This document shows, in pieces, positions 1 through 63,958 of a stretch of 64,000 nucleotides of DNA. This DNA comes from Tausonia pullulans (Eukaryota; Basidiomycota; Tremellomycetes; Cystofilobasidiales; Mrakiaceae): contig OX637629.1 of assembly GCA_951802195.1 (NCBI GenBank), positions 186,001 to 250,000 of the forward strand, given 5' to 3'. Made by a program: the position numbers and the translations under genes. The notes below the pieces were generated by a model. It was not told the DNA's origin, did no database searches, and worked only from the letters and a program-made list of their open reading frames with translations. Numbering within the stretch: position 1 is the stretch's first letter; every line of letters begins with the position of its first letter.

Positions 1-867
1 CGACGTAAGGGTGCCTCGTCCAAATGTACCGCTCGGTGAAGATGGAGCGGAAATCCGAACGCCAAGTGTTGCGCGTCCAGCGGAGGACCTGTTTAATGAA
101 TCGCCAGTTGGGTTTCATCGTCGAAAGCAGTTCAGCGTCTTTGCAGACCTGGATGTACGTCGACCAGCCGTGAGAGACCATCCATCGGGTGAGGAACTTG
201 TCGTCGCCCGAGTTGAGGTGGTACTTGCCGAGCCAGAGGTCGTTGGTGAAGCCGTGAATGAACTCGGGGTCTTTGAGGATAACTGTCCGGTAGGCGGCCG
301 TCCGACCGGAGAGGCAGGGGACGCCCCCGTCGATGTGCGTCGACGCAGCGATCTCGATGTTGCGGATCGTCAAACGGAAGGCGGCGAGGACCTCCCAGAC
401 GGTCATCTTGTCGCCGACAGGCTGGACGCGCTGCGAGGTGCCAACGCCGCCGACCTGCTGGTCCTCGAAGCAGGCGAGGACCGTGGGGAGAAGTGTCGGC
501 GGCCAGATGGCGTCGTCGTCGGCAAAGACGATGATGTCAGTCGACGTGTTGCGGATGCCATGGGCCATCTGGAGTCGCTTGTTGGCAAATGGGACTGTAA
601 GGACCCGGATCTTTGACGGGTCGACCGAGTCGGCGAGCTCCTGGAGCGGGCCGAGCATGCGCTCCTCAGTGATGATGATGATCTCCTTGGGCCGACCAGC
701 GAGCCATGAGTGGGCGGCCTCGCGGAACTCTTCGCCGGCGTCAATGGTCGGGACGATGATCGTCACGTCCTCGTGCGCAAAATACGTCGGGTTTTCTGGG
801 ACGGGGATCGGTCGGTAGGCGGCCGTTGCCGCGAGACGGATCATAAACCAGAGGTAACGATAGAAGC
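1..867 (-). CDS. CPS1: Cps1-type polysaccharide synthase (family 2 glycosyltransferase), partial
   Basis: Reading the minus strand from 867 to 1 gives one uninterrupted frame of about 289 residues. In order it shows a membrane-proximal segment (GFYRYLWFMIRL), the GT2 opening VTIIVPTIDAGEEF, the nucleotide-sugar motif VFADDDAIWPP, the acceptor motif NSGDDKFLTRW, and the processive-synthase motif QVLRW near the end. This is the arrangement of fungal Cps1/hyaluronan-synthase-like enzymes, membrane proteins that polymerise a sugar from UDP-sugar at the plasma membrane. The exon opens after an acceptor ending CCTTAG at 868-873, so at least one 5' exon lies further right; I could not identify it among the open frames of 900-1300. 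The 3' part, expected to hold the C-terminal membrane helices, is beyond the window. The family call is firm; the polymer made is unknown. Confidence 0.85.
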
Positions 868-2634
868 CTAAGGTAAGGCAGTGATGAAGGGGTGAAGTGG
901 AGTAAGGAGGTCAGAGCTCTTCTCCTAGGGCTCGAGAGAAAGCGCGTCCCTCTTCGCTCTTGGCCGGGCGTCTATGCGTCCCTCCACAGGCGAAGCACAG
1001 AGGGACACCAAGACGAGCCGCCGGCCCCTCCTCGGAAGAAGGACACAAGGGCGAGTCCTCCAGCGGAGCATGCGAAAGAAGCAGGATCAGAGCGGGAAGG
1101 GCTCACCAATGACCCCGAAGGGACTGCGATGCGTCCAAAGGAAACCAGCCTCGTCAGCACTGCGAAGTTCCCGACCACACCGCCGCCCGCAGGCCAAAGC
1201 AGCGGCAGAGCCAACTCACACAAAGACGGGGAACTTGTCGGCAGTGAGATACCTGGAGGAGGAACGACCACGATAGAGAGGTTTGCATGAGTCCCTCGTC
1301 GAGCAGATAAAGAGCGGGAGGCGCCTCTGTGTCACGCGTACGACTGCAGCGGACGACGGCTTCGCAACAGCAGCGGCAACGGCAGCGGCCGCAGCGCAGG
1401 CGTGGGCTCTCAAATGGGTGGACGAACAGCATGTCCGGCGGTGAACGACTTCAGACAAGGAATCGAGGGAAGGAGATAGACGATGGGGGAGCCGGGCGGG
1501 ACCGCTACCAAGGGCAAGAAGAAGGCAGGCGGAGGGGTTGCAGTCGGAAGTCGAGCTGGGAGGCGAGGGAGGACGGAGAGAAGCTCAAGTGGAAGGCGGC
1601 GCGGTGCTAGGTGTGGGAAGGGAGACGGGGCACTCTAGCAGGCGGAGAGGAGGAGAGTGGGCCGAGCGAGAGGAGAGGGGAGGGGGAGTTTAGGGTGCCG
1701 CGGTCGTCGTCGTCGTCGTCGGCCAGATGGATGGTTAGGGCAGAGCAGGAGAGGGTCCCTCCTTCGACCTTGGACCGCCTGGGGGTTTCGCGGGGAAAGC
1801 AAGGGGTCTCGATCTTGCGCACGCCATGATCTTTCAGCTCGCCCATTTTTAGCTCGAGCATACTCCCATCATGGTCTTGCAGAAAGCACCCTGTTCCAGC
1901 CCTGCTGGTACCCGGGAGACGGATGAGGAGGACAAGGGCAAGGGCAACGGGCAACGGGCAAGAAAAAACATGGTAAGGGACAAAGCTTTTACACAGGAGA
2001 ACCGGGGCTTGAGCATGTGCCGCGGTTCGCCAGATGACGTCGCCGCAAGGCCTGCCTTCCCCTGATCTTGCGCAGGCCTTGCCAAGCTGAACGCCCACGA
2101 TCCGCGCGCCTTCCGCAATCAACATGATTCATCTGCAAGGGAGAGCGTACGAGTCGCCAATCGAGGGAGGGGGTGAGAGTGAGGAAGCTCTGAGCAGCAC
2201 GCTTTTGGCGGTCAGGAGACTCTCCGTTGAGCTCCCTCTCAAGCAAACTTCAGGGGCTTTCCCCGCAGTCTTTCTTTCAGACCGGAGTTGAGAGAGCGTC
2301 TCTTGTTTCAGTTGACGCAGTGTGGGAGACACCCTACAGTCAAGAGTCTAACAGCGGCGTGTCGCCCATCTCATAGCGCCAACAGCCTACGTGCCGCGCT
2401 GACGATGCTACCGCTTAGGACGCATGCAATTGTCACTCCTTCCACAAAGAAGGAGATGTCACATCAGGACATGGTAACATGACAATCTGCTCATTGTGGA
2501 CGACGGTGCGTTCGGTTCAGGCGCGTTCTTGGATGTCAGGCCGCGTCTGATACAAGAAAGAATCGAAACGACTCGGAATGGGGTGCCTACGGTCGACGTC
2601 CACGAAAGGAACGATACTCGGAACCTAAAAGACT
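868..2634. other. No supported gene; upstream region of the polysaccharide synthase
   Basis: No frame here shows a recognisable domain. Open frames are long on both strands, as expected in GC-rich DNA, and have Arg/Ser/Pro-rich compositions typical of chance frames. The missing first exon(s) of the synthase gene should lie at the left end. A (GTC)6 microsatellite sits at 1703-1720, and 1330-1400 is CAG/CGG-rich. Confidence 0.4.
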
Positions 2635-2789
2635 TTTGGCCGAGAAGCTCGCATCAGCCAACGATGAACAACGTTCTCCCCGGAATGAGCGCGCCAAGCG
2701 GCGCGGGTGATGCCACTCGTTGTCCTTCAGACGCCGGCCGCTATACATCTTCACACCACTGCCGACGCCAACATCAACGCCCCAGGGAC

Positions 2790-2794
2790 AAAAA
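2790..2794 (-). terminator. RNA polymerase III oligo-T stop of tRNA copy A
   Basis: Five T residues on the minus strand begin about 6 nt after the tRNA 3' end, as expected for pol III termination. Confidence 0.6.
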
Positions 2795-2799
2795 GTCTT

Positions 2800-2873
2800 A
2801 GACCAACGTGGGACTTGAACCCACAATCTCCTGATTCGTAGTCAGACGCGATAACCAATTTTGCCAGTCGGCC
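2800..2873 (-). tRNA. tRNA-Arg(ACG), copy A
   Basis: The 74-nt sequence folds as a complete tRNA. Its acceptor arm GGCCGAC pairs with GTTGGTC (with G-U pairs), and an A-box-like TGGCAAAATTGG and B-box GGTTCAAGTCC are both present. The anticodon loop CTACGAA gives anticodon ACG, read as ICG for arginine CGN codons after inosine modification. The same anticodon loop occurs in yeast tRNA-Arg(ACG). There is no intron. An oligo-T terminator follows. Confidence 0.92.
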
Positions 2874-2928
2874 CTGCAAGGAGGGAGACATGCAAGGGAG
2901 GGGAGGAGAACGGACCGAGACTCCCACT

Positions 2929-3205
2929 TCCCTCTTGTGGACACCAAACGTCGTCCCACGAAGGAATTTTTTTTTGTATTTAAGTCATGAGTTATACGTG
3001 GAGAACGAGGTAACCCTATGAGAGATATCGAGTTGTAGCTAGATAGAGGGAGAGCGGACATGACCGAGCGCGAGAACGTCGGGCGAGGCGCCGTGGGAAG
3101 AGGGTTGGCCGAACCACTGGGGATGATTGGCCGGACGGCGTGATGGGCGCCGTGAGAGGGGGGTTGGTCGAACCACCGGGATGGTGGTTGGCCGGAAGAG
3201 GGTTG
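2929..3205 (+). repeat. Left arm of a 277-bp inverted repeat
   Basis: Position x in this arm is the complement of position 7470 minus x in 4265-4541, with no mismatch or indel in the stretches I compared, including a run of nine T matched by nine A. The outer 165 bp or so is unique sequence. The inner part is the minisatellite in inverted orientation, and it runs into the assembly gap, so the true arm may be longer. Confidence 0.9.
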
Positions 3206-3405
3206 NNNNNNNNNNNNNNNNNNNNNNNNNNNNNNNNNNNNNNNNNNNNNNNNNNNNNNNNNNNNNNNNNNNNNNNNNNNNNNNNNNNNNNNNNNNNNNN
3301 NNNNNNNNNNNNNNNNNNNNNNNNNNNNNNNNNNNNNNNNNNNNNNNNNNNNNNNNNNNNNNNNNNNNNNNNNNNNNNNNNNNNNNNNNNNNNNNNNNNN
3401 NNNNN
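3206..3405. other. Assembly gap (200 N)
   Basis: Exactly 200 unknown bases separate minisatellite units running in opposite orientations. The round number suggests a placeholder of arbitrary length. The gap lies where the inverted repeat turns round, which is where assembly would be expected to fail. Confidence 0.95.
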
Positions 3406-4378
3406 ACCCCCCTCTCACGGCGCCCATCACGCCGTCCGGCCAACCATCCCCAGTGGTTCGACCAACCCCCTTCCGGCCAACCACCATCCCGGTGGTTCGA
3501 CCAACCCCCCTCTCACGGCGCCCATCACGCCGTCCGGCCAACCATCCCCAGTGGTTCGACCAACCCCCTTCCGGCCAACCACCATCCCCGGTGGTTCGAC
3601 CAACCCCCCCCCCCTCTCACGGCGCCCATCACGCCGTCCGGCCAACCATCCCCAGTGGTTCGACCAACCCTCTTCCGGCCAACCACCATCCCGGTGGTTC
3701 GACCAACCCCCCTCTCACGGCGCCCATCACGCCGTCCGGCCAACCATCCCCAGTGGTTCGACCAACCCCCTTCCGGCCAACCACCATCCCGGTGGTTCGA
3801 CCAACCCCCCTCTCACGGCGCCCATCACGCCGTCCGGCCAACCATCCCCAGTGGTTCGACCAACCCCCTTCCGGCCAACCACCATCCCGGTGGTTCGACC
3901 AACCCCCCCCCCCTCTCACGGCGCCCATCACGCCGTCCGGCCAACCATCCCCAGTGGTTCGACCAACCCCCTTCCGGCCAACCACCATCCCGGTGGTTCG
4001 ACCAACCCCCCCTCTCACGGCGCCCATCACGCCGTCCGGCCAACCATCCCCAGTGGTTCGACCAACCCCCTTCCGGCCAACCACCATCCCGGTGGTTCGA
4101 CCAACCCCCCTCTCACGGCGCCCATCACGCCGTCCGGCCAACCATCCCCAGTGGTTCGACCAACCCCCTTCCGGCCAACCACCATCCCCGGTGGTTCGAC
4201 CAACCCCCCCCCCCTCTCACGGCGCCCATCACGCCGTCCGGCCAACCATCCCCAGTGGTTCGACCAACCCTCTTCCGGCCAACCACCATCCCGGTGGTTC
4301 GACCAACCCCCCTCTCACGGCGCCCATCACGCCGTCCGGCCAATCATCCCCAGTGGTTCGGCCAACCCTCTTCCCACG
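3406..4378 (+). repeat. Minisatellite, 98-104 bp units, about ten copies
   Basis: The landmark TCTCACGGCG recurs at 3413, 3511, 3615, 3713, 3811, 3914, 4013, 4111, 4215 and 4313, giving periods of 98, 104, 98, 98, 103, 99, 98, 104 and 98. Each unit holds two similar half-units built on CCGGCCAACCA and TGGTTCGACCAACC. Length variation comes almost entirely from a poly-C stretch. The spacing pattern repeats every 600 bp. The plus strand has no stop in the unit, so long frames cross it in all three phases; these are a by-product of composition and not genes. Confidence 0.95.
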
Positions 4379-4541
4379 GCGCCTCGCCCGACGTTCTCGC
4401 GCTCGGTCATGTCCGCTCTCCCTCTATCTAGCTACAACTCGATATCTCTCATAGGGTTACCTCGTTCTCCACGTATAACTCATGACTTAAATACAAAAAA
4501 AAATTCCTTCGTGGGACGACGTTTGGTGTCCACAAGAGGGA
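4265..4541 (-). repeat. Right arm of the 277-bp inverted repeat
   Basis: This is the complement of 2929-3205. The outer terminus reads GGTGTCCACAAGAGGGA and abuts tRNA unit copy B. The last bases, GAGGGACGG, also occur in copy C at 26361-26370, which lacks the inverted repeat. The element's end therefore lies at or within this short motif. No convincing direct target-site duplication is visible on the two outer sides. Confidence 0.9.
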
Positions 4542-4734
4542 CGGAAGGTCCTCGTGAATGAGAGATAACGGTAGCAGAGAAGCTCGTATCAGCCAACAAC
4601 GAACAACGTTCTCCCCGGAATGAGCGCGCCAAGCCGGCGTGAGAGATGCCACTCGTCGTCCTCCGACGGCGGTCGCCATACATACACCTTCACACCACCG
4701 CCAACACCAACACCAACGTTAACGCCCCAGAGAC

Positions 4735-4738
4735 AAAA
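4735..4738 (-). terminator. Short pol III oligo-T stop of tRNA copy B
   Basis: Four T residues on the minus strand follow the tRNA after 6 nt. This is one fewer than in copy A and two fewer than in copy C, so termination may be weaker. Confidence 0.5.
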
Positions 4739-4744
4739 GATCTT

Positions 4745-4818
4745 AGACCAACGTGAGACTTGAACCCACAATCTCCTGATTCGTAGTCAGACGCGATAAC
4801 CAATTTTGCCAGTCGGCC
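4745..4818 (-). tRNA. tRNA-Arg(ACG), copy B
   Basis: This is a 74-nt tRNA identical to copy A except for one change in the T-arm that turns a G-C pair into G-U, so the fold and the B-box are kept. The anticodon is ACG. It looks functional. Confidence 0.9.
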
Positions 4819-4873
4819 AGAGGGATAGAGAGGAAGGGAAGAGGAAGAAGGAACCGAAACTTCCACTTCCTTG

Positions 4874-5186
4874 ATGGGACGATCGCACAGTGGTCTGTTT
4901 ATATATCGAGCAAAAGAGGCGACCGTCGCTTTGTCCTCTCACCCTTCACCCTCATCGAGCCACAAGCGGGCGCTCAGAGATGATGGTGGTGGAAGTCGAG
5001 AGAGCGATGTCCGCAGCGCGTCGTCCATGGTGTCGAGTCTCGTTTCCTCTTCCTCCCCAGACGGCAACCCTCAGCTATCCTTGATCTGGCTCATTTTTCC
5101 CCGCCGTTCGCCCTTTCCCTTTGGGAACCTCCTTTCTTAGATATCTTAGCATATATCTCCACGCACCAACCAACATCTTCATCCCG
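4874..5186. other. Intergenic; 3' flank of the DEAH helicase gene
   Basis: About 310 bp lie between tRNA unit B and the stop codon of the helicase gene. No domain or conserved frame is visible. It should contain the helicase 3' UTR at the right end and the tRNA upstream region at the left end. Confidence 0.5.
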
Positions 5187-8209
<3,023 letters not shown>

Positions 8210-8975
8210 GGCTGCTCTTGAGAAGAGACCAGGAAGCGGAGAAGGTCGTCGCTTTGGTCACAACGCGTGTGGGAGAGAAATCGGGGGACAGCGAATCGTG
8301 GTCCTGTCAAGGGCAATGCGCGCCTGCTGCGGCTGACCCAGCACGCGCGGAGGCCGGCGAGAGAGACTGAAGGCGTGCGCCGAAACCAGGGAAGCGATGC
8401 TTTCCCTCGACCACCATTAGCCACCCACGCGGCAAGCCCATCCTAGAACCTGTAAGTCGTTCTCCAGGGACCGTTCAGAGTGCATCCAGTATCTTTGGAC
8501 TTCCGCGCGCTCGCGGCCGAGCGACCTCAGATGCGCCGGCGTTCGTGATGACGCGCGGGGGTGGGAACTTCAGAGCTCTATCGCTTTTTGCCACTCTTGG
8601 CAGCAGCAGCGATGCCGTCCAAGGTGGAAGCTCAGCTCCTCTTGGTACCTCTTCGCACGCCCGCTGTCTCGCGGTCGCTCTCGTCCGAGCTCGTCGACGC
8701 GTCCGCACCGACCGCGTTGTCGTCTTTCGTCGCTTCGGTCGTTCCCGAGGAGGACCTCACAACAGGAGATCGGGGATAGCAGCCTCGTGGGAGGCTGAAT
8801 ATCGCTTGCGCAGAGCTCCTTGACCAGCGTCGACCAGCCGAAGGCCAGAAGGCTCCCCAGGCACATCCTCACCCTGTCATCTTCCCCGCTCCGCCTCAAT
8901 TGTGCATCCCGGTGGGCCAGCCCAGCTGACGTCGACCTCTCCAGATCTCACACTCCTGTATCTTCCACCAATAAC
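8210..8975. promoter_or_regulatory. Shared upstream region of the helicase and SH3 genes
   Basis: This 766-bp gap separates two divergent start codons, so it must carry both promoters. I see no convincing TATA box. Several short frames cross it on both strands, but none shows a domain. Confidence 0.4.
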
Positions 8976-10103
8976 ATGGTTTTCTCCAATCTCACCTACG
9001 AGGACAAGGTGAATACCCGTTCGCGTCACATGGAAGAGCGACGATGACTGAACTGTAGCGTTCCGCCCCCAGGTTGCCTTCTTCGAGTTGATGGACGAGG
9101 TGCGAGGATCTGTCAATCACAGACACGACCTCCCGCTTATCTACCCTACCTTTTAGTATTTCGCCTCCCGCCCTAACCTCTTCGCCAACTCCGGCGGAGG
9201 AAGCGCACCTCAGAATGCCGCTGCCGCCGCGGCAGCCTCCCAAGTCTCCTCTTTCGCGTCCAAGAACACCGCTCTCACCGGGAACCTCATCTCCTCCGGC
9301 ATCCAGCACCAAGCGGTCGCGAACCCTGAATCGAAATGGTCCGGTGTTCTCAAGAACGATAAGGTCTCGGGAGCGCTGGGCAAGATGGGTGCTGCGGGAC
9401 TCGCCTCCGGAGCGACAACTTCCGCACCGGCGGGTGCTGGAGTGAACGGGGCAGCACCGCCGCCGCCGCCTTCGCAGGCTGCTAAGGCACCGAGGGGAAC
9501 ACTGGGTGGGCTTCAGTCGGCGAGGACATTTGGACATGTTGACACATCGAGCAAGCTGGGCGCGATGAAGACGATGTTCAAGGGTGCGCCTTTAAACAAC
9601 TGCGCGTTGACACACGCAGAGATCGGATGCTGACTTTTGGTGTTGCTCTCAGACCCCAAGGCCGCTCGTAAATCTCTTCCCTCTCATGCTTCGGTCACAT
9701 CTGACCTCGCCTCCCTCTTTTCTCCTAGCCGCAACTAGCCCCTCTCTTCCGTCTCACAGCACCACCGCCGGCGCCAGTCCCCGCCGGACCAACAACCTCC
9801 CACCCCCTCCCGTCCGTCGTGTTACCGCCTCTCCTCCTGCCCCTTCCGTGCCGGAGCCCGAGGACGAGGGTGACCTCGCTGAGGCGATGTACGAGTTCAA
9901 GTCGGCTGAGGACGGGGATCTGCCACTGAAGGCGAAGCAGGTCGTTGTGATACTTGAGAAGGTGAGGCCTCCTCATCGATCGAGGAGTGCTAGGAGCTGA
10001 TATGATTTTGGCAAGCAAGGTCTCAGCGGACTGGTGGAAGGCGAGGAGCAGGGAAACGGGCCAGGAGGGCTTGGTGCCGAGCGCTTATCTCAAGGAGATC
10101 TGA
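8976..10103 (+). CDS. SH3-domain protein with conserved N-terminal helix
   Basis: The start MVFSNLTYEDK is at 8976. Exon 1 ends at 9008, and the protein continues as VAFFELMDEYFASRPNLF after two short introns. The stop TGA is at 10101-10103, giving about 275 residues. The middle is Ala/Ser/Pro-rich with the proline run APPPPPP. A C-terminal SH3 domain starts at LAEAMYEFKSAEDGDLPL, continues after an intron through DWWKARS, and ends at GLVPSAYLKEI, with the ALYDF, WW and P-Y signature positions present. SH3 proteins of this design in fungi (Lsb1/Pin3 and Csh3 relatives) bind proline-rich actin and endocytosis factors. That role is family inference; the exact orthologue is not clear. Confidence 0.8.
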
Positions 10104-11295
10104 CGGACAGGACTCGTGGTATGAATATAATATGGAGAGATCTTCCGCCATCAACACGCCTCCCCCGGTTTCCGCGAGCTGCTTCACACAACCTCAAACC
10201 AATCCTCCATCCCCCTACCTCTTCTCGGCCACCCCTTTCAAAAACACTTCCTTCACGCCTTCCCAATTAACTCCGTTCCAAGCACAATCCTGACCGGCTC
10301 ATCCGACGTCGGAGAAGATCGCATCACCTCTCCTCCCCTTTTAGTTGCAGCGAAAAATCTCAACGATCGCAATTTTTTCTTTCATATTTCCCCTTCAACA
10401 TCCTCTCAACACTCGCGATGAACTTCAACCATAGGAGAGACGAGTGAGGCACGCGACGTCCGTCTTGGCCGCGGCAATGCCGTGGATGATTCGGAACTGA
10501 AAAGAGTCCGCTGCCGGGATGAGATGATGACGTCGTTTCTGCCGATGGTATGGGGTTGAATGGCCGGGGTGTTGGTCCTCGCCGGAGTAGCGAGCCCACG
10601 AGCGGAGAAGAAGCTAGAAGAACATCCATTGTTGGCCGCGTCGAAGTGGTCATGCGGCCCGGCCGAGAGCGGGGAGAAAGCACACAGGGCTGAGGAGCGG
10701 TAACGCTCAAAAAAGACTACTAGTGAGATTGGTTGTGCGACGTCATGACGGTGAACACGAGTAGCGGGTTCGCGTGGATTAGCGAGCCTGTGCTGGCGGT
10801 AACGCGGGTTGGAGAGACGTGGAAAGTGTCGGCGTCAAAGACTTTATGGATTGGGTCGTATGGGCATTGATACATTCCCTCGTACATTCAGAGGACTTGT
10901 GAATCCTGTGGAAAGAGTGGTGGAAAGGGAGAGGAGGCGCGAGACCCGGTCGGAGTTTAGAAGAACGCATCGCATGGTTGGCTCGAGTAAGCGAATATCG
11001 CGTTGTTAGATGAGAAATCAAATGGACATACATGCCCGCAGAAGAGCAGGAGAAGCGTGCGTTGATCCAACAACGACTCGATCGTATAGGAACGGCGCAC
11101 ACCTCTTGAATGCATTGAAGTTGAGCCGGCAGACGAATGCCAACGTCGGAGTGTCTGCGAGAGTGGTCAAAGAGGTGAAAAATATCCGATGGGGGGAACA
11201 GTGTCTGTCTGCAAAAGCAGGATGGAGTCGGAAACCGCCGGATATGTGCATCCGCTGGCATGCACTCATTGACCACTTCGCCGCTCTTTAAAGGT
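10104..11295. other. No supported gene
   Basis: Downstream of the SH3 gene the frames on both strands have no recognisable domain. 10130-10400 is pyrimidine-rich and AT-richer, like a 3' UTR. Confidence 0.4.
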
Positions 11296-11619
11296 CTAGA
11301 GATCTTCCTTTTCTATATCCGAGCTCCCCTCCTGGCTATCTGAACCCAATGACTCATAGGTGAGATTACATTTTACCGAAGAGAGCGCAATCTCAAGTTG
11401 ACTGGTCGTCTCTTGCTGGAGAGCGATGGTGGATTTCAGAGTGGAAACTTTGGTCACCATGGGCCACTCTAGCACGGCCAATTACTCCTGCAGGTCTTGA
11501 AGCGCTCTGAACATAGTCGAAAGAGGCTGGTTATCAGAGAGAGGATGAGCGACCGAGGTAAGGGTGAGGCATCGTCGATATTCGCACGGAAGCGAGGGAT
11601 CATCCGACTCCTTCGTCAT
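11296..11619 (-). pseudogene. Small split reading frame with one in-frame stop; unrecognised
   Basis: From an ATG at 11619 the minus strand reads MTKESDDPSLPCEY and on to ALQDLQE, then TAA at 11482-11484. In the same frame it continues LAVLEWPMVTKVSTLKS for 61 more codons to an acidic end, GSSDIEKEDL, at 11296. The composition (Leu/Glu/Gln-rich, helix-forming, acidic tail) is unlike the Arg/Ser/Pro-rich chance frames around it, and the frame is not broken otherwise. It could be a young pseudogene, a read-through gene, or two exons whose intron I have not resolved; the only GT-AG pair directly enclosing the stop is 17 nt and would shift the frame. I do not recognise the family, and chance remains possible. 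Confidence 0.35.
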
Positions 11620-12295
11620 CCGGACGGAAAAGTCGGGTCACAGAGACGGAGGTTCGCTTTATAGGGTCGGCCAAAGCCGGTGGATATCAAGCATAGACCA
11701 TGTGAGGGGGCAGATAGACAGAGAGTGAAGGGCCTTGTTGTGCTTGGTCTCAAGAAGAGCAGGAAAACGCGCGTGATCTTTCGCATACACTCCAGATCAG
11801 CGGCGCACATCCGAGCCGATGAAGCTGAGCATCCGCGGAAAGGGGGAGGTTTGGATCTACGAAAGGAATGTGGGGAGCATACTTGATCAAGCAATGAAAG
11901 GAGCGATAAAAGGGGGGGTAAAGCTCCAGGGAGAAGATGACTTGGACAAGATTAGAGCAAAACTACATGCGAGGAAGAAGAAAGGATGAAAGAGCGGCTG
12001 GCACTTCGGAAAGTTAAACTTCCAGTTAAATGTACAACGGTTCAAGCTGAGGAAGGGACCCGACTGTGAGGTGCTAGCGATGCAAGGGGGAAGAACGGTA
12101 AGGTAAGGTGAAGAAGCAAGATCCAAAACGACGAGACGAGCGAAATGCGGAAGTACGGCAGACAGCAAGACGACCAAAAATGACATGACGTGAACAGCTG
12201 GAGAGCGACGAAGACAGAGGGGGAAATGGGACTACGAGATCAGAGAAGATGAGACATAGACGAGACGAGATGAGAGGAAAGGGAGGAAGCCAGAA
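11620..12295. other. No supported gene; 3' side of the homeobox gene
   Basis: No domain or convincing frame. This 676-bp stretch should contain the 3' UTR of the homeobox gene. Confidence 0.4.
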
Positions 12296-15106
12296 TCAGG
12301 AACCGTACGGCCACTGATCGCCCGCAGCAGAGGGCTGTTGCTGTTGGCGTGGTTCATCCGAGATGTCCGTATCGAATGCCGGTCGGTCGGCCGAGTCGGG
12401 AGGCGACCGGTAGCCCCGATTGCCATCCGCGATGTTGTTGGGGTCGCTGGAGGGGGGCCACGAGATGAAGGGCGCCTCGGAGCGTTCAGCAGTCGTTGGG
12501 ATGGACGATTGCGCACCACCAGGGATCGATGAGGCGCCAAATGGGTCATACTCAAAGTTGACGTCAAGTCCATTGAAAGACGACGTGCTCGTCGAAGGCG
12601 GACGCTCGTAGGCGCCAAGTCCCGAGGGGACGTGCGAGTTCGACGAGCCGTCACCCTGAAACATGGGAGACGTGGTGGTGAAGGGTGATGGGGGTTGGGT
12701 GTTCGAAGTGGATCCGAACGCGGGAGGGGCGAAGGATGTCGAGGCAGGTGAAGGGTAGGGCAGGGCTGAACTCGGCGGCGGGGCACGATAGGGCGCGAAG
12801 GGAGGCATGTCGAAGCTCTGGGAGGATGACGGCCAGCTGGGCCCGTACCACCCTTCCGAGAAGCCGCCTCCCTGCACCGAGTGGGATCCACCGATGTATG
12901 GAGAAGCTGACGACAGGGGGGCGCCGACACGCTGATCGCCTGACCAACCCCTGAGTTCCCAGCTGGTTGATGGCCGCAAGTTGACGGGAGACGGTCGCAC
13001 AATCCTGCGCTCTCCTCCCGAGGTCGACGGCCGAACAGACAGAGGGAGTTGCGAGGCCTGGATTCGACGGAGAGTGGGAGCCGGGCTGCCTCTGATCGCA
13101 TGTCCACCACGAGGTGTGACGGAGGGATCGTCAAGGGCGGCAGAGGGGCTGGCTGGAGATGCCGGATGGAGTGACGAACCAGAAGAGGAGGATGGCTGAG
13201 GGACAGGGAGAGAGGAGAGGACAGTGAGCGAAGGGGGGGAGAGCTGGGAGTTGACGGAATGGAGAGAGGGCCGAGCGTGGCCAATTGAGCCCTCGAGGAA
13301 GCGCATGAGATCCTTCTGGCCGGTCTAGAGGACGAAGGGAGGGGAGCAGAATTAAGCGAGGTGAAAGAGAGTATGTAATGGCTAGATCACGAACCTGACT
13401 GCACTGGATTGAGTGCACTCGCACTACAGAGGCGGACCCGTCGGTGAAGTCGCCGACTGGTTCCCATCGCATTCTTATCTGCTTATCTCCTGCTGGGACA
13501 GGAACGGCGGTTGCCATCTCGGGTGCTTCGGAGACTTCAAGTACGACGCCGTCGACGCCCACGCGAGAGAAGTTGATGATGGACTCAAGCCGAACAGTGA
13601 TTTGGTAGCCGAGATCGGCATGAGAGAGGTAGTAGACGAGCGCGCCCTCCTTGCCGTAGATGACGAGGTCCGGCGAGCGAGGGTTCGAGGAGGTGAGATT
13701 CCGCAGCCATGTACCGATGGCGAGGCTCGAAACGCGGAAGAGCTGGACATTGGCTGCAAAAGGAGAAGGAAGCATAGGCGATCACACAGGAAGAGGAGGG
13801 ATCAGCTTCCGAAAGAAGACCGGGCTGTCTGACAATGGAGTCCTTTCAGGGGAGGAGGGGGAGGCACAGGCAACACTGACAGCTCGTCTCGAGGAGAATA
13901 TGCTCGCGCAGGTAGTGGTCCAGTTCTGCTGAGGCCGCTCGAGCGGTCTGGCTGTTGGTCGACGAAGAAGATGCGGAGGCCGCGGCCTCACGTGCCTTTT
14001 TGTAGCGTTGCGACTTGGGCACCATGCCCTTGGCTTCCTCCCGAATCGTTTGGCGGCTGCAGGATGACAATGCAGCAAGCAAACAAAAATCTTCGAGTCA
14101 ATGCGAAGGACGACGGCCAAATCTTGAGCCGAAAAAACATTGAACAAACCGGTTCTTTGATTTAAGAGCGAGGGAGATGGTGTAGGGGGGGAATTGAGGC
14201 GCGGAGATCCCGACGATCAGCATGAATGCAGCGAAACGTGGCGTCGCGCCGCCGCTTTCTCACGCGCATGTAAAGAAGGACAAAGGGGAAGGAAGATGGC
14301 CACCGACCTGAAACCAGACCGTGACATTCTTCTCCGTCACAGTGACGCCGGGCTCAGCGAGCCTCGTGGCCTCCCTTGCGAGCCTCGTTCGCTCGGCCTT
14401 GCTGAGCCGGTCAGAGACGTTGAAGTTCTGGAGGAAGAGGGCGACCTGCCTCTCATTCGACTGGAACCGCCGGGGCTGGAAACTGACGCTGCTGCCCGGA
14501 GCACCTGACGCCGCCGCGGAGGAAGACGAGGTTCGCCTGGGAGATGTACGAGATCCTGACGAGGATGCTGGCCGGCCCGACGTTGACGGGGCCTTTGTGG
14601 GAGATGAAGAGCGAGAGGAGAGTGAGGAGAGAGGACTCGAAGCCGTCTCCGAGGTAGGTCGACGAGGCGATTGGGAGGAGTGGTCGGGAAAGAAGGCGGC
14701 AGCGCCTGGGAGGACCTCTGCATGGTTCTGGTGTGGGCTTCGATAGGCTTGGAAGGGGGACGGGGGCTAGGGTGATGAGAAGGTGCTTCGGACGGACGTG
14801 TTTGTTTAAGACATGCGCGTACGCACTGAACTCACATGAAGGCCGTCGTCCGAGTTGCTGGTACGGTTGGTATGTGTGGTCTCCCACCGCCGTGGGACGA
14901 TCCTTCTCGAAGTGCAAGTGCTGGTGGTGGGTCGCGGTCGGCGACGGTGGCGCAGTGTGGTGCAGCAATTGCTGATGCTGATTCGCCTGATGATGCTGGT
15001 GGTGGTGATGATATGGGTACCCAACAATCTCCGGCACGCCGCCGACTCGAAACGCCGATGATGGCGTCCTTGCGTCACCAGGAGCCTCGGCGGGCGGGGG
15101 CTGCAT
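12296..15106 (-). CDS. Homeobox transcription factor with a 5-nt micro-exon
   Basis: The start MQPPPAEAPGDARTPSS is at 15106 and the stop TGA at 12296-12298. Exon 1 is His/Gln-rich (YPYHHHHQHH) and ends at a GTGAGT donor near 14833. The next exon is Ser/Pro-rich and then carries the homeodomain: FQSNERQVALFLQNF, LSKAERTRLAREATRLAE, and KNVTVWFQ ending at 14308. The invariant NRR is supplied by a 5-nt exon (14150-14154) joined to the exon starting at 14056, giving WFQNRRQTIREEAK. A further exon (about 13400-13760) holds a conserved-looking region, VQLFRVSSLAIGTWLR to DLVIYGKEGALVYYL, that I cannot name. A 330-residue low-complexity Ser/Pro tail follows and ends in Gln runs (PRQQQQPS). It should act as a nuclear DNA-binding regulator; its targets are unknown. 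The 5' splice site after exon 'ETSCQ' and the acceptor of exon 2 are my least certain joins. Confidence 0.82.
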
Positions 15107-16625: not shown

Positions 16626-18349
16626 TCAACCCTTTCCTCGCTTCTTCTTCGGAGGTTCCTGCTGCCCTTCGGTTTGAACCACGCCGAGCGCGACGTCGAC
16701 AGCGACCCGCCTCAAGGGCTCCTTGACATTGTCCATCCAGTAGATCCGCTCGCGCTCCCCAGTCACGAGTTCGGCGGTGACCGTCTTCCCGGCATCGGCG
16801 ATGCTCGAAGCGTCAACAGCGTGCGACGTGAAGTGCGCGAGCACAAGGGGCGCGAGAGAAGGATGAGGCAGGCGGAGGTGTGCCTAGCAATACATGGGCG
16901 GGCCTTGTCAGCATGTGGTGGTCCTCTCGGAGAAGACGGTGGGCGGACTGAGAATGGAAGTAAAGAAGGGAAGGAGAGTGAGACTCACTGAGTCCGCGCC
17001 CTTGCTCCAGTCGACATAACCGACTTGCCAATCGCCCGACACGGCTATATTCTCCTTGTGCCGCAAGATACCGTTGACGAGATCCTTGATAGCCGTCTTA
17101 TTAGTGCTCGGCGAAAGATTCTTGAGGAAGAGAAGACAGTCGGGCGGGAAGTCGGGACGCGCGTGGCTTATGCTTTCCTCCATCGCGATGACTGTCGGAC
17201 CCAACGGAAAGGCGGGACTCTTCTTCGACGTGATCGGTGCAGCAGGCAGTGTTTCTATGGTCTGAGCGGAATGAAGCAGGTCGAGATACTCCGCCTCAAG
17301 TCTCTCGTATTCGGTTCTACAGAAAAAAAGATGAAACAAGCGGTCAGCGTGACTGCGCAACTCAAGTCGTCTTCGAACGCGCGAATTTACTTGGGCAGCA
17401 TCCGAAGGCCCGCAGCGCATGCGTCGCCCGCCTCACGAGGGCCACCCTTGCGCTTCCCGCGAGCCTTGGCCTTCGACCAGCTCCAGGCATCGAGCGCGAG
17501 GAGAGTGCTCGCGGAGTCTCGAAGGGTAATGAAGGCGAAGCCCCGGAAGTTGGGAGGAGGCACCACAAGCGATTGAACAGTCCCCGGACCAAGAAGAGCG
17601 TTGAGGAAGACGAGGATTTGCGGCACGTTGTGAAGATAGGATGGGAAGTTCTCCTGCGGGGCGGGACACAGCAGTGGCCTATCAGCGTGGGAAGAGACAG
17701 CTAGACAGGGGAGCCGGTAAGCTGGACGAGTTACTCAATACTCACGACGTACACCTCGTTCGGGCGAGCCACATAGTAATTTTGAATCTTGCCAGTCCAT
17801 CCTATGCGACCGATCTCGAAGCCACTTTCGCCATGGGCCCTGGACCCTCCATAGCTTGCTGGCTCGGTGAGGGTGATCCTCGACTGGAGGAAGCCGGGCG
17901 TGCCATACGCCTTGAGAGCGCAGTGGACGGTGAGCTGAGGCTGGCGTCGGAACTGCTCCAGCGACCGATGAGAGAGCACGTGTTGTAACGAGACGACTGA
18001 GAAGAGGGGGTTTCAGCGCATCGTAAATCCCGGCCTACGGGCAGAGGCAGCACTGACAGCCATTGTTTCGGCCCATCCGCGCAGACAGGTGCAGCTCGTC
18101 TGGGTCGAGCGACAAGTTGTAGTCCGAGAAGAGAAGTTCGATAGCAGCGGCACACTCGATATCGGCCGCCTCTGACCCAGCCTGCGGCTTGCTTGACGAG
18201 GTCACGGGAGATGCTGAGTTGTTAGTTGTTGGCGCAGAGAGTGCTGGTGGAGGAAGGGGTGGCGCCAGCGCGCTGGCGGGTGGCACTACCGGTGGCCGGG
18301 GAGCCTCCGAAGACTGAATCTTCTTCTTGACCACTCGCGGCACGAACAT
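16626..18349 (-). CDS. La-related protein of the LARP7/Pof8 family (La motif, RRM, C-terminal xRRM)
   Basis: The start MFVPRVVKKKIQSS is at 18349; an in-frame ATG at 18487 would add 46 residues. The stop is TGA at 16626-16628. After a Pro-rich stretch comes a La motif split by an intron: IELLFSDYNLSLDPDELHL, then VSLQHVLSHRSLEQFRR. RRM1 follows, with NFPSYLHNVPQILVFLNALL and the RNP1-like FRGFAFITL. The C-terminal domain has LLFLKNLSPSTNKTAIKDLV, then LVLAHFTSHAVDASSIADAG and ERERIYWMDNV, which matches the xRRM with its helix after the sheet. It ends in a basic tail, PPKKKRGKG. LARP7-type proteins bind the 3' part of an RNA polymerase III or II RNA. In ciliates (p65) and fission yeast (Pof8) that RNA is telomerase RNA, so this is a telomerase RNP candidate. 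The family call is strong; the RNA partner is inference. It is divergent from DPB11. Confidence 0.78.
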
Positions 18350-18718: not shown

Positions 18719-21700
18719 ATGGGCAAAGGCCACCTCTCATCCAAGGTTCCAGGTGTCAAGCTGCGGCCCGCACGACCCCGCTCGAAGCGGACAAGTAAGA
18801 ACGGGAAGCACGCGTCTCTTACTGGTTCGTACACGTGATCACTCGTCGGATACCTAAGATCCTCCCTTTCCTCCCTCTTTTCTGATAGTGCGTTCCCTTT
18901 AGACGAGGGCGAAGAGGAGGATACCGACGAGTTCGAGCCGGAACCGACGGCCGAGAAGCTCAACGTCGTCGACCGCCCCTTCAAGGACGTCCGGATTTGT
19001 TTTTCTGCGGTCAGGAACAAGGTGCGAGGAGTCTTCTCTCATAGCGGAGGCATTCAGCTTTTTGATCTGACTGATGAGACTGGATGGCTGGCTCAGCGAG
19101 CGCTGATGGGCTTCGCCGACGATCTCGGTGCGGCTGTTGAGCACGCCCTGACCGACACCTGTACTCACCTCGTCGCTGCCGATCACACGAGTCCCAAGTA
19201 TCAGGTGAGGCCCCGACCACATTCTGAGGCGTTTAGAGGATCCCGACTGATAAAGGATGGACAACATGCGCAGGTCGCTCTTGGTCTGGGGTTGCCTATC
19301 TTGACAGAAGAGTGGCTCAGCGAGACCCACCGGGTCTGGATGGAGGGCGGAGAAGTGTCGCTATCCGAGGTGAGACCGAGGTGAGCTGTCAAGTGAGGTA
19401 ATTGGTGTCAGAAGCTGAGGTTATGACTGCATTCGCTACGCAGTCTGTCGAGGCCCATCGGCTACCTCCGTTCCAGAATCTCCGGATCTGCCTCTCTGGA
19501 TACTCTCGCAGCAGTGAGTCTTCCCTCCTCTCCCCTCCTTTTTTTTTCTTTCTTTCCGAAAGGAATGCCAGAAGCTGTGATGTATCTTCCGGACGTGTCT
19601 CGTGCGCCTTCTTGACCATCTGCCCCCCAGGCCCTCACAAGAGCAAGATGATCTCCTTAATCCACTCGCTCGGCGGCTACCACTCTAAGGACCTCGACCT
19701 CACTTGCACACACCTCATTCCAATGGATCTTAAGTCGGCACATGCCAAAATTGAGTGCGTTCGATCCCTCACATGTCTAGAGCGACACTTATGACAATCC
19801 ACTCTCTCTACAGCTGGACCAAGAAGCAAAACAGCAAGATGGTGCTGGAGCGGCTTCAAGCTCAAAAGGCCGGCAAACCCCCACCGACAATCTCAGTGCC
19901 CGGGCACGGTAACCACGGACACAAGGTTGAGAAGCCCAAAGAGGAGATCAATATTGTCTGGGAGCAGTGGTTCTGGGATTGCGTCAACGCTCATGGTGCG
20001 CTTTGCCTCTCAACTTGAGCGTGTGTAGGTAACTATCACTAACCTGCTTCCTTGTCGCTCCTCAGGTCGATGGATTGAGGAGGAATATTTCATCGAGAAA
20101 CCGGTCGACTTGATTCCTCCAAGACCAAGTGAGCCCAGGTCCTCGAGTGCTCGGTCTGGGTGTGCGCTGATCTTGCACTCGCCTTCAGCCAATTTCACGG
20201 TCCATCATATCTCTCTTCACGGAGCCGACTCAACGACCCTTACCTCGGCCGATCTCATGACTGGCACGACTACCGCTCCGACTTCTGCAGTGGCCGGCGG
20301 CTTTCCTGGACCCTCAAGGACCTCTACGGCAGACGACCATCTCGAACAGGCCGTTATCCGGAGGCAGCGTCGGAAACCGGGGGAAGATCTTGCCAGCGTC
20401 CTTTTCTCAGCGACCCAGCAAGTCTCATCAGCTAGTTCGAAGCAGCAGAACGCGCAAACCGGCGTGGAGAGCGACCAGCTCCCTAATGTCCGAGAACTCA
20501 CCCGATGCGCTTCATCTGGAGCAACACAGGCCCCCGTCGTTTCCTCCAAGCTCTCTCGGATCGGAGGGCTCTCACGGGCCAAGTCTTTCACCGCTGAGAC
20601 CGCCAGGACCGGCACTTTCCCCGTCTGGTCGTCGTCGTTGAGCAATCGGCTTGCGACTGTCCCTGAGCCCTCGTCGCCATCGGAACAGATCTTCCGAGGC
20701 CTTTGCTTCTGTTTGCGCCTCGGTTCCGGTAAGACCCGCCAGACCATCGAGAAAGAGATTCGAAAGATGGGCGGAGAGATTGGAGCAGAGGAAGAGCGCG
20801 CCGACTATCTTGTCGTCAAGTTTGCCCAGTGCGTCCTCTGTCTGGCTCACTGATCTGCCTGCTGTGGGATAAAGGTGTTGATGATCTGGAGTTGTCTTTA
20901 CTCCTTCCCAGTGGCCCGCACAAGCGACTCAGACCTTTGCGCCCCCACGACACGGGAAAGCGGGCCCGGCTCGTTACGGATTACTGGGTCGAAAGCTGCC
21001 TGGCCGAACGGAACATCCAACCAACCGACGCACGCCTCCGGTTCACGCCGGTTAACTTCGATGTCCCAATACCAGGTGTGAATTGTCCTCGAATGGGAAT
21101 CAACTCTACATATTCTCAGACTGATCCCCAACGCTTTTTAGGCTGTGAGACGCTTCTGTTCGGCAAGACTAACTTGATGACGTCCGATTGGCGTGATATA
21201 GAAGTCCTCGTCCTGCTCATTGGTGCGTCGTCAGTTCCACTTGCACTAAAGCTAGCATTGCCCAACGAACGGACCCACTTGTTTTCGTTCCTCGTCGACA
21301 GGCGGACAATTCACTCAAGCCTTCCCCGCAAACATGACACATCTCATCTGCGACCCCAACGACGTCCAGGGTGGGAAGTACGAGACGGCGCTCAAGCTGG
21401 ACATCCCCGTTGTCTCTCCTGAATGGCTCGGGGCCATCAAGCGACAAGGGCGGATCCCCGAGCTGGATGCATACCGCCTCGGAGAGTCAATTGCCGACGG
21501 TGGGTCCCTCTCATTCCCTGATGATATCGAACGCATACTGAATGGACGTTTCTTCGTCTCCAGACAAAGTGGATCGTGTCGCCATCGACGCCGTCGCCGA
21601 TGCGCGTTCCTCCTCATCCGCAAATGTGTCGTTCAGCGGCTCGCTCCCTTCCTACCCTTCGAGATTCCACTCTCTCACTTCAGCCACATCTCTTCCTCTC

Positions 21701-26097: not shown

Positions 26098-26171
26098 GGC
26101 CGACTGGCAAAATTGGTTATCGCGTCTGACTACGAATCAGGAGATTGTGGGTTCAAGTCCCACGTTGGTCT
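26098..26171 (+). tRNA. tRNA-Arg(ACG), copy C
   Basis: This is a 74-nt tRNA identical to copy A, on the plus strand. The anticodon is ACG in loop CTACGAA, and the A-box and B-box are intact. Confidence 0.92.
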
Positions 26172-63884: not shown

Positions 63885-63958
63885 AGACCAACGTGGGACT
63901 TGAACCCACAATCTCCTGATTCGTAGTCAGACGCGATAACCAATTTTGCCAGTCGGCC
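63885..63958 (-). tRNA. tRNA-Arg(ACG), copy D
   Basis: This is a 74-nt tRNA identical to copy A, anticodon ACG. Its downstream flank is unrelated to copies A-C, so it looks like an independent, perhaps ancestral, locus. Confidence 0.92.

Follow-up and report, generated by a model that had tools for sequence, protein, structure and literature searches.

Ultra-short exons in fungal genes are on record, one of a single nucleotide included, so the kind of exon considered here is already known. The 1-nt exon of Fusarium CYP621A is described as having SRA read support and an identical candidate in 24 genes, and nearly all deposited transcripts are reported to be wrong at that point (PMC12940212). 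The subject of the present analysis, the five bases AACCG in a homeodomain gene, resembles this case in being an ultra-short fungal exon that lies between AG and GT, completes a conserved motif and was deduced from motif and phase; it differs in size (5 nt), in belonging to a transcription factor rather than a P450 and in being predicted from sequence, whereas the CYP621A exon is read-backed (PMC12940212). Among the P450 microexons described for Phanerochaete chrysosporium the shortest given is 6 bp (PMC1184071), and an 8-nt exon is also mentioned (PMC12940212). These are likewise basidiomycete genes with small introns and with microexons, some of which lie inside conserved motifs, but they represent the P450 family and not the homeodomain family (PMC1184071).

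In the transcription factor Xlr2, a microexon is described as deciding the DNA-binding domain of a fungal regulator; its inclusion is glucose-dependent, and the domain is GAL4-like rather than a homeodomain (PMC11121469). A 3-bp micro-exon is described in a homeodomain gene, Drosophila homothorax, but it is placed between the MH and HD exons, outside the recognition helix, and makes up the first 3 bp of a 48-bp alternative exon (PMC7392893). By domains alone, the present gene can be likened to HOY1, Pah1 and Phx1, which carry a TRF2/HOY1 PH-like domain and a homeodomain on one protein; the text of that paper contains no mention of introns (PMC3438059). For two Cryptococcus papers, the passage found says only that the microexon search of the aligner was on (PMC3990503, PMC8022950). 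None of the titles and opening lines of abstracts searched described a fungal homeodomain gene with a microexon inside its WFQNRR motif, and such a report may exist in print.

The window, i.e. the whole 64-kb stretch of DNA that was analysed, contains the gene on its minus strand, and all gene coordinates are numbered within it. The most coherent model joins six exons and five GT–AG introns into a single open frame of 759 residues. Exon 1 (14836–15106, 271 nt) is an open frame with a putative start codon, ATG, at 15106 and the donor GTGAGT. It is followed by intron 1 (14748–14835, 88 nt; GTGAGT...CCAAG), the acceptor of which is a prediction; one alternative acceptor that is in frame and stop-free would move the start of exon 2 to 14705. 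A run of 21 C (15130–15110, minus strand) has AG after it and ends four bases before the putative start codon, and it might represent the pyrimidine tract in the acceptor of a 5′ UTR intron. Exon 2 (14308–14747, 440 nt) encodes the homeodomain through Gln50 (...VTVWFQ) and is followed by intron 2 (14155–14307, 153 nt; GTCGGT...AAAG), in phase 0 at the Gln50/Asn51 boundary. Exon 3 is the microexon AACCG (14150–14154), which encodes Asn51 and two bases of the Arg52 codon; within this codon lies intron 3 (14057–14149, 93 nt; GTTTGT...GCAG), in phase 2. Exon 4 (13881–14056, 176 nt) opens on the minus strand with CCGCCAAACG, directly after the CTGCAG of intron 3, and supplies the third base of Arg52 followed by Arg53 and QTIR.... 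Intron 4 (13754–13880, 127 nt; GTCAGT...GCAG), exon 5 (13395–13753, 359 nt) with the PH_TRF2_HOY1 domain, intron 5 (13325–13394, 70 nt; GTTCGT...CTAG) and exon 6 (12296–13324, 1029 nt including the stop codon) with a low-complexity C-terminal part complete the gene.

The spliced codons TGG TTT CAG AAC CGC CGC CAA ACG thus read WFQNRRQT. The first-pass annotation had ended the WFQ exon at 14308, begun the next exon at 14056 and proposed that AACCG, flanked by AG on its 5′ side and GT on its 3′ side, is inserted between introns of 153 and 93 nt to restore the phase and give WFQNRRQ. Both exon boundaries proved exact on the minus strand, the microexon and its flanking dinucleotides (the GT belonging to GTTTGT) were located to the base at 14154–14150, and the two intron lengths and the restored motif were recovered within the 759-residue frame.

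The whole spliced protein matches the Pfam homeodomain family (PF00046) with 29 bits and the spliced homeodomain piece including the microexon with 33.6 bits, against a cut-off of 22.9. With residue numbers assigned from the motif, Trp48, Phe49, Asn51 and Arg53 are all present, and Asn51 is supplied only through AACCG. The homeodomain is followed at residues 303–418 by a PH_TRF2_HOY1 domain (PF24818; 24.9 bits, narrowly above the cut-off of 24), and a search of the genome (23.86 Mb) with this family reported one match, the 759-residue gene itself, with 28.8 bits. Homeodomain matches in a search of solved structures were weak (best E value 0.016). Judged by its predicted domains, the product is a HOY1-type homeodomain transcription factor.

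The donor that follows the microexon, GTTTGT, matches the pattern GTNNGT, which is found at 7.3% of all GT dinucleotides on the window's minus strand. A hand-made list of 16 donors from eight homeodomain genes, five of them from the HOY1-type gene, contains 13 that fit this pattern, a figure to be read as a consistency check and not as independent proof since the donors were picked during splicing; the three that depart from it include both donors of the locus L011. The acceptor of intron 2, AAAG, is less common than YAG, and intron 1 as modelled likewise ends in AAG. Ahead of its acceptor, intron 2 is free of AG for 98 nt; a run of at least this length precedes 0.76% of the 4061 AG dinucleotides on the minus strand, coding sequence included. 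A single match to the branch-site pattern CTNAY was found in the 251-nt stretch between the WFQ exon and exon 4, namely CTGAT at 14220–14216, inside the AG-free run. The putative branch adenosine (14217) is about 62 nt from the intron 2 acceptor, which is a long distance, and this together with the AAG acceptor counts mildly against the microexon. Pyrimidines make up 74% of the 47 bases ahead of the final three in intron 2, compared with 64 to 83% in the other four introns.

The 251-nt stretch contains a single AACCG, and AGAACCGGT occurs once in the 64-kb window when both strands are counted. The homeodomain could instead be atypical and lack Asn51 if one longer intron with other splice sites were used. 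The enumeration of single introns of at least 30 nt took GT donors starting 60 nt upstream of the WFQ codons and continuing onward, and allowed AG acceptors as far as 60 nt inside exon 4; ten GT–AG introns do leave an open, stop-free frame; all ten were rejected, as none gives WFQN or Asn51. An enumeration of stop-free internal exons of up to 60 nt between introns of at least 40 nt produced four that restore the frame, of which AACCG alone provides Asn51, and the other three were rejected on that ground. The microexon form, the form with the microexon skipped and five of the ten single-intron readings were scored against the Pfam homeodomain: the skipped form reached 23.3 bits, and the single-intron readings gave 22.3, 22.5, 23.9 and 22.5 bits and, in one case, no match. 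Two of these six readings without the microexon (23.3 and 23.9 bits, the latter for the intron 14307–14038) still exceed the cut-off of 22.9 bits, since homeodomain positions 1 to 49 are intact. A single longer intron would furthermore make the perfect AACCG and its GTNNGT donor a coincidence, and it appears highly improbable. The proposal of the first-pass annotation that a 5-nt exon is used here is supported in that it is the sole reading found that preserves the homeodomain motif. The size of such a coincidence was estimated from 20 000 dinucleotide-preserving shuffles of the 251-nt stretch with the outer splice sites fixed, an inner exon of up to 60 nt and introns of at least 40 nt. WFQNRRQT was obtained in one shuffle with a GTNNGT donor and in nine with any GT donor, and the looser WFQN[RK][RK] in three and 33, respectively; these figures presuppose that the motif must be WFQNRR, and the match is far above chance provided that the motif is expected at this place. 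That the gene is decaying, with a broken homeodomain and a fortuitous 5-nt match, might be suggested by the PH-like domain, which is barely above its cut-off (24.9 versus 24 bits). Against this stand the six exons in one 759-residue frame with five GT–AG introns, the status of the gene as the sole PF24818 match reported in the genome and a chance of about one in 20 000 for the match, and we consider decay extremely improbable.

A regulated switch would retain the microexon and make its use variable: occasional skipping, or retention of a flanking intron, would shift the frame and turn DNA binding off through truncation or nonsense-mediated decay. There is a reported precedent in Trichoderma virens, where a microexon is said to act as a switch in the transcription factor Xlr2 (PMC11121469). 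The first-pass annotation had noted that direct joining of the neighbouring exons destroys the frame, and the skipped form indeed stops at codon 260; retention of intron 2 or of both introns leads to a stop at codon 253 and retention of intron 3 to one at codon 256, so that the skipped and intron-retained forms all end early. The same result can be turned against a switch, in that every alternative form computed is truncated, and a length of 5 nt, in contrast to that of most microexons, cannot be divided by three (PMC11121469); divisibility by three, which keeps both forms readable, is the usual, not universal, property of switch microexons. Regulated use is thus unlikely, though less so than the two readings above.

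By far the most probable interpretation is that AACCG is a constitutively included 5-nt coding microexon of the HOY1-type gene between two U2-type introns. Its length falls within the class of about 3–30 nt, and GT–AG introns flank it on both sides. Two ordinary U2-type introns would occupy codons of the recognition helix, one at Gln50/Asn51 in phase 0 and the other in Arg52 in phase 2, and the interval between the two would hold just five coding bases. The difficulty of the spliceosome with very short exons concerns mainly exon definition, and intron definition is expected at intron sizes of 70–153 nt, the range found in this gene. The spliceosome would most likely treat each short intron separately, one after the other: removal of the first intron would join the microexon to an exon of normal size, after which the second could be removed. 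With separate and sequential splicing, U1 and the 3′ splice-site factors would not need to share five bases simultaneously. We infer that the microexon is present in the mRNA, that its inclusion is constitutive and that the introns are spliced in sequence.

Six-frame searches of the same genome gave eight matches to PF00046, including the HOY1-type gene, and three to PF05920, one of them shared, and hence at least ten distinct homeodomain-type loci. Introns in these loci were predicted from the sequence around the motif, with WFxN numbered 48–51. One locus (L009) is below the PF00046 and above the PF05920 cut-off; another (L013) is below its cut-off and was read through one stop, which falls in a predicted intron. 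Eight of the ten loci have one or more predicted introns at codons 46–52, and five require an exon shorter than 30 nt (5, 12, 25, 26 and 29 nt). In L007 (G000:C7:1030220-1033321, minus strand), putative introns at Gln46/Val47 and Gln50/Asn51, each of 103 nt, enclose the 12-nt exon GTCTGGTTTCAG, which encodes VWFQ; the Pfam score is 65.1 bits with this exon and 39 bits, still above the cut-off, without it. L007 is thus a second, independent case of a predicted microexon. A candidate intron at Trp48/Phe49 is found in L003 (minus strand), where a 26-nt exon lies upstream of it, and in both L004 and L005. In L011 and L013 the candidate intron interrupts Trp48 in phase 2 and is followed by exons of 25 nt (giving WFTNMRRRS) and 29 nt, respectively, and in L002 (minus strand) it interrupts Arg52 in phase 2. 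The short predicted exons of L003 and L013 lie within the recognition helix or span it. L006 and L009 showed no predicted intron at codons 46–52.

The phase-0 intron at Gln50/Asn51 therefore recurs at its predicted position in L007 and the phase-2 intron in Arg52 in L002, so that each intron bounding the microexon has a counterpart at the same codon and in the same phase in a different homeodomain gene. The common positions may derive from ancestry or from repeated insertion at similar sites. L011 and L005 lie about 1.4 kb apart on contig 13 (near 189000 and 190470) in opposite orientation, an arrangement that resembles a basidiomycete HD mating-type pair; on this basis the genome is called basidiomycete-like. 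Both loci have a predicted intron at Trp48. HD pairs are described as divergently transcribed (PMC4915694).

It is conceivable, and on the present sequences quite improbable, that in this fungus the homeodomain recognition helix is a general intron hotspot and correct microexon splicing a shared checkpoint for homeodomain regulators. If this were true, an altered splicing efficiency would turn off the DNA binding of many such regulators together, perhaps with the mating-type-like pair among those affected. Searches for the kinase and forkhead families served as controls for intron placement; their tables, read by eye together with one kinase sequence, give no background microexon rate. Among the Pkinase matches listed, 18 rows (about 14 genes, counted by eye) start or stop at profile position 122. 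This suggests that introns may recur in invariant motifs outside homeodomains as well, the Pkinase RD motif being perhaps another hotspot. In the kinase L034, the Arg codon belonging to the RD motif of the catalytic loop (YR/DLKPE) is split after CG by a putative phase-2 intron, as at Arg52.

Elsewhere in the window, a frame at 16908–17432 on the minus strand matches the xRRM family (PF19977; 44.4 bits) and one at 18839–19384 on the plus strand matches BRCT (PF00533; 26.8 bits). Four tRNA matches are located at 2800–2873, 4745–4818, 26098–26171 and 63885–63958. One match to 5.8S rRNA (L015, G000:C8:1294449-1294568) was obtained with 39 of 795 candidates scored, and it looks diverged in the 1,001 bases read. 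A genome search with the phenylalanine ammonia-lyase family (PF00221) returned no match, and heavily split genes can escape such detection. Searches of the protein database with residues 178–430 of the spliced protein (E ≤ 0.001) and with the exon 2 frame (E ≤ 10) produced no confirmed relative. Two queries against viral contigs and one against genome contigs gave two, 56 and 31 pattern-match stretches, respectively, with no confirmed relative among them; as these collections are viral and prokaryotic, this absence says little about conservation.

New here are the clustering of predicted introns at codons 46–52 in eight of the ten homeodomain loci, the recurrence of the positions of the flanking introns and the need for an exon shorter than 30 nt in five of the ten. 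The location at Asn51, the 5-nt size and the paralogue-wide cluster are worth reporting, and they are not revolutionary. If transcribed as proposed, a very short coding exon bears Asn51, the residue with which the protein appears to read DNA and the one most critical to its DNA-binding domain. As the HOY1-type gene and several of its sister genes carry predicted introns within one short stretch, ordinary gene-finding programs may read them wrongly, and annotations of such fungi may contain homeodomain genes that lack a working recognition helix. With introns clustered in one helix across paralogues, there is a natural opportunity to test why invariant motifs come to harbour introns, and how a spliceosome that works on short introns copes with exons too small to hold both splice-site complexes together.
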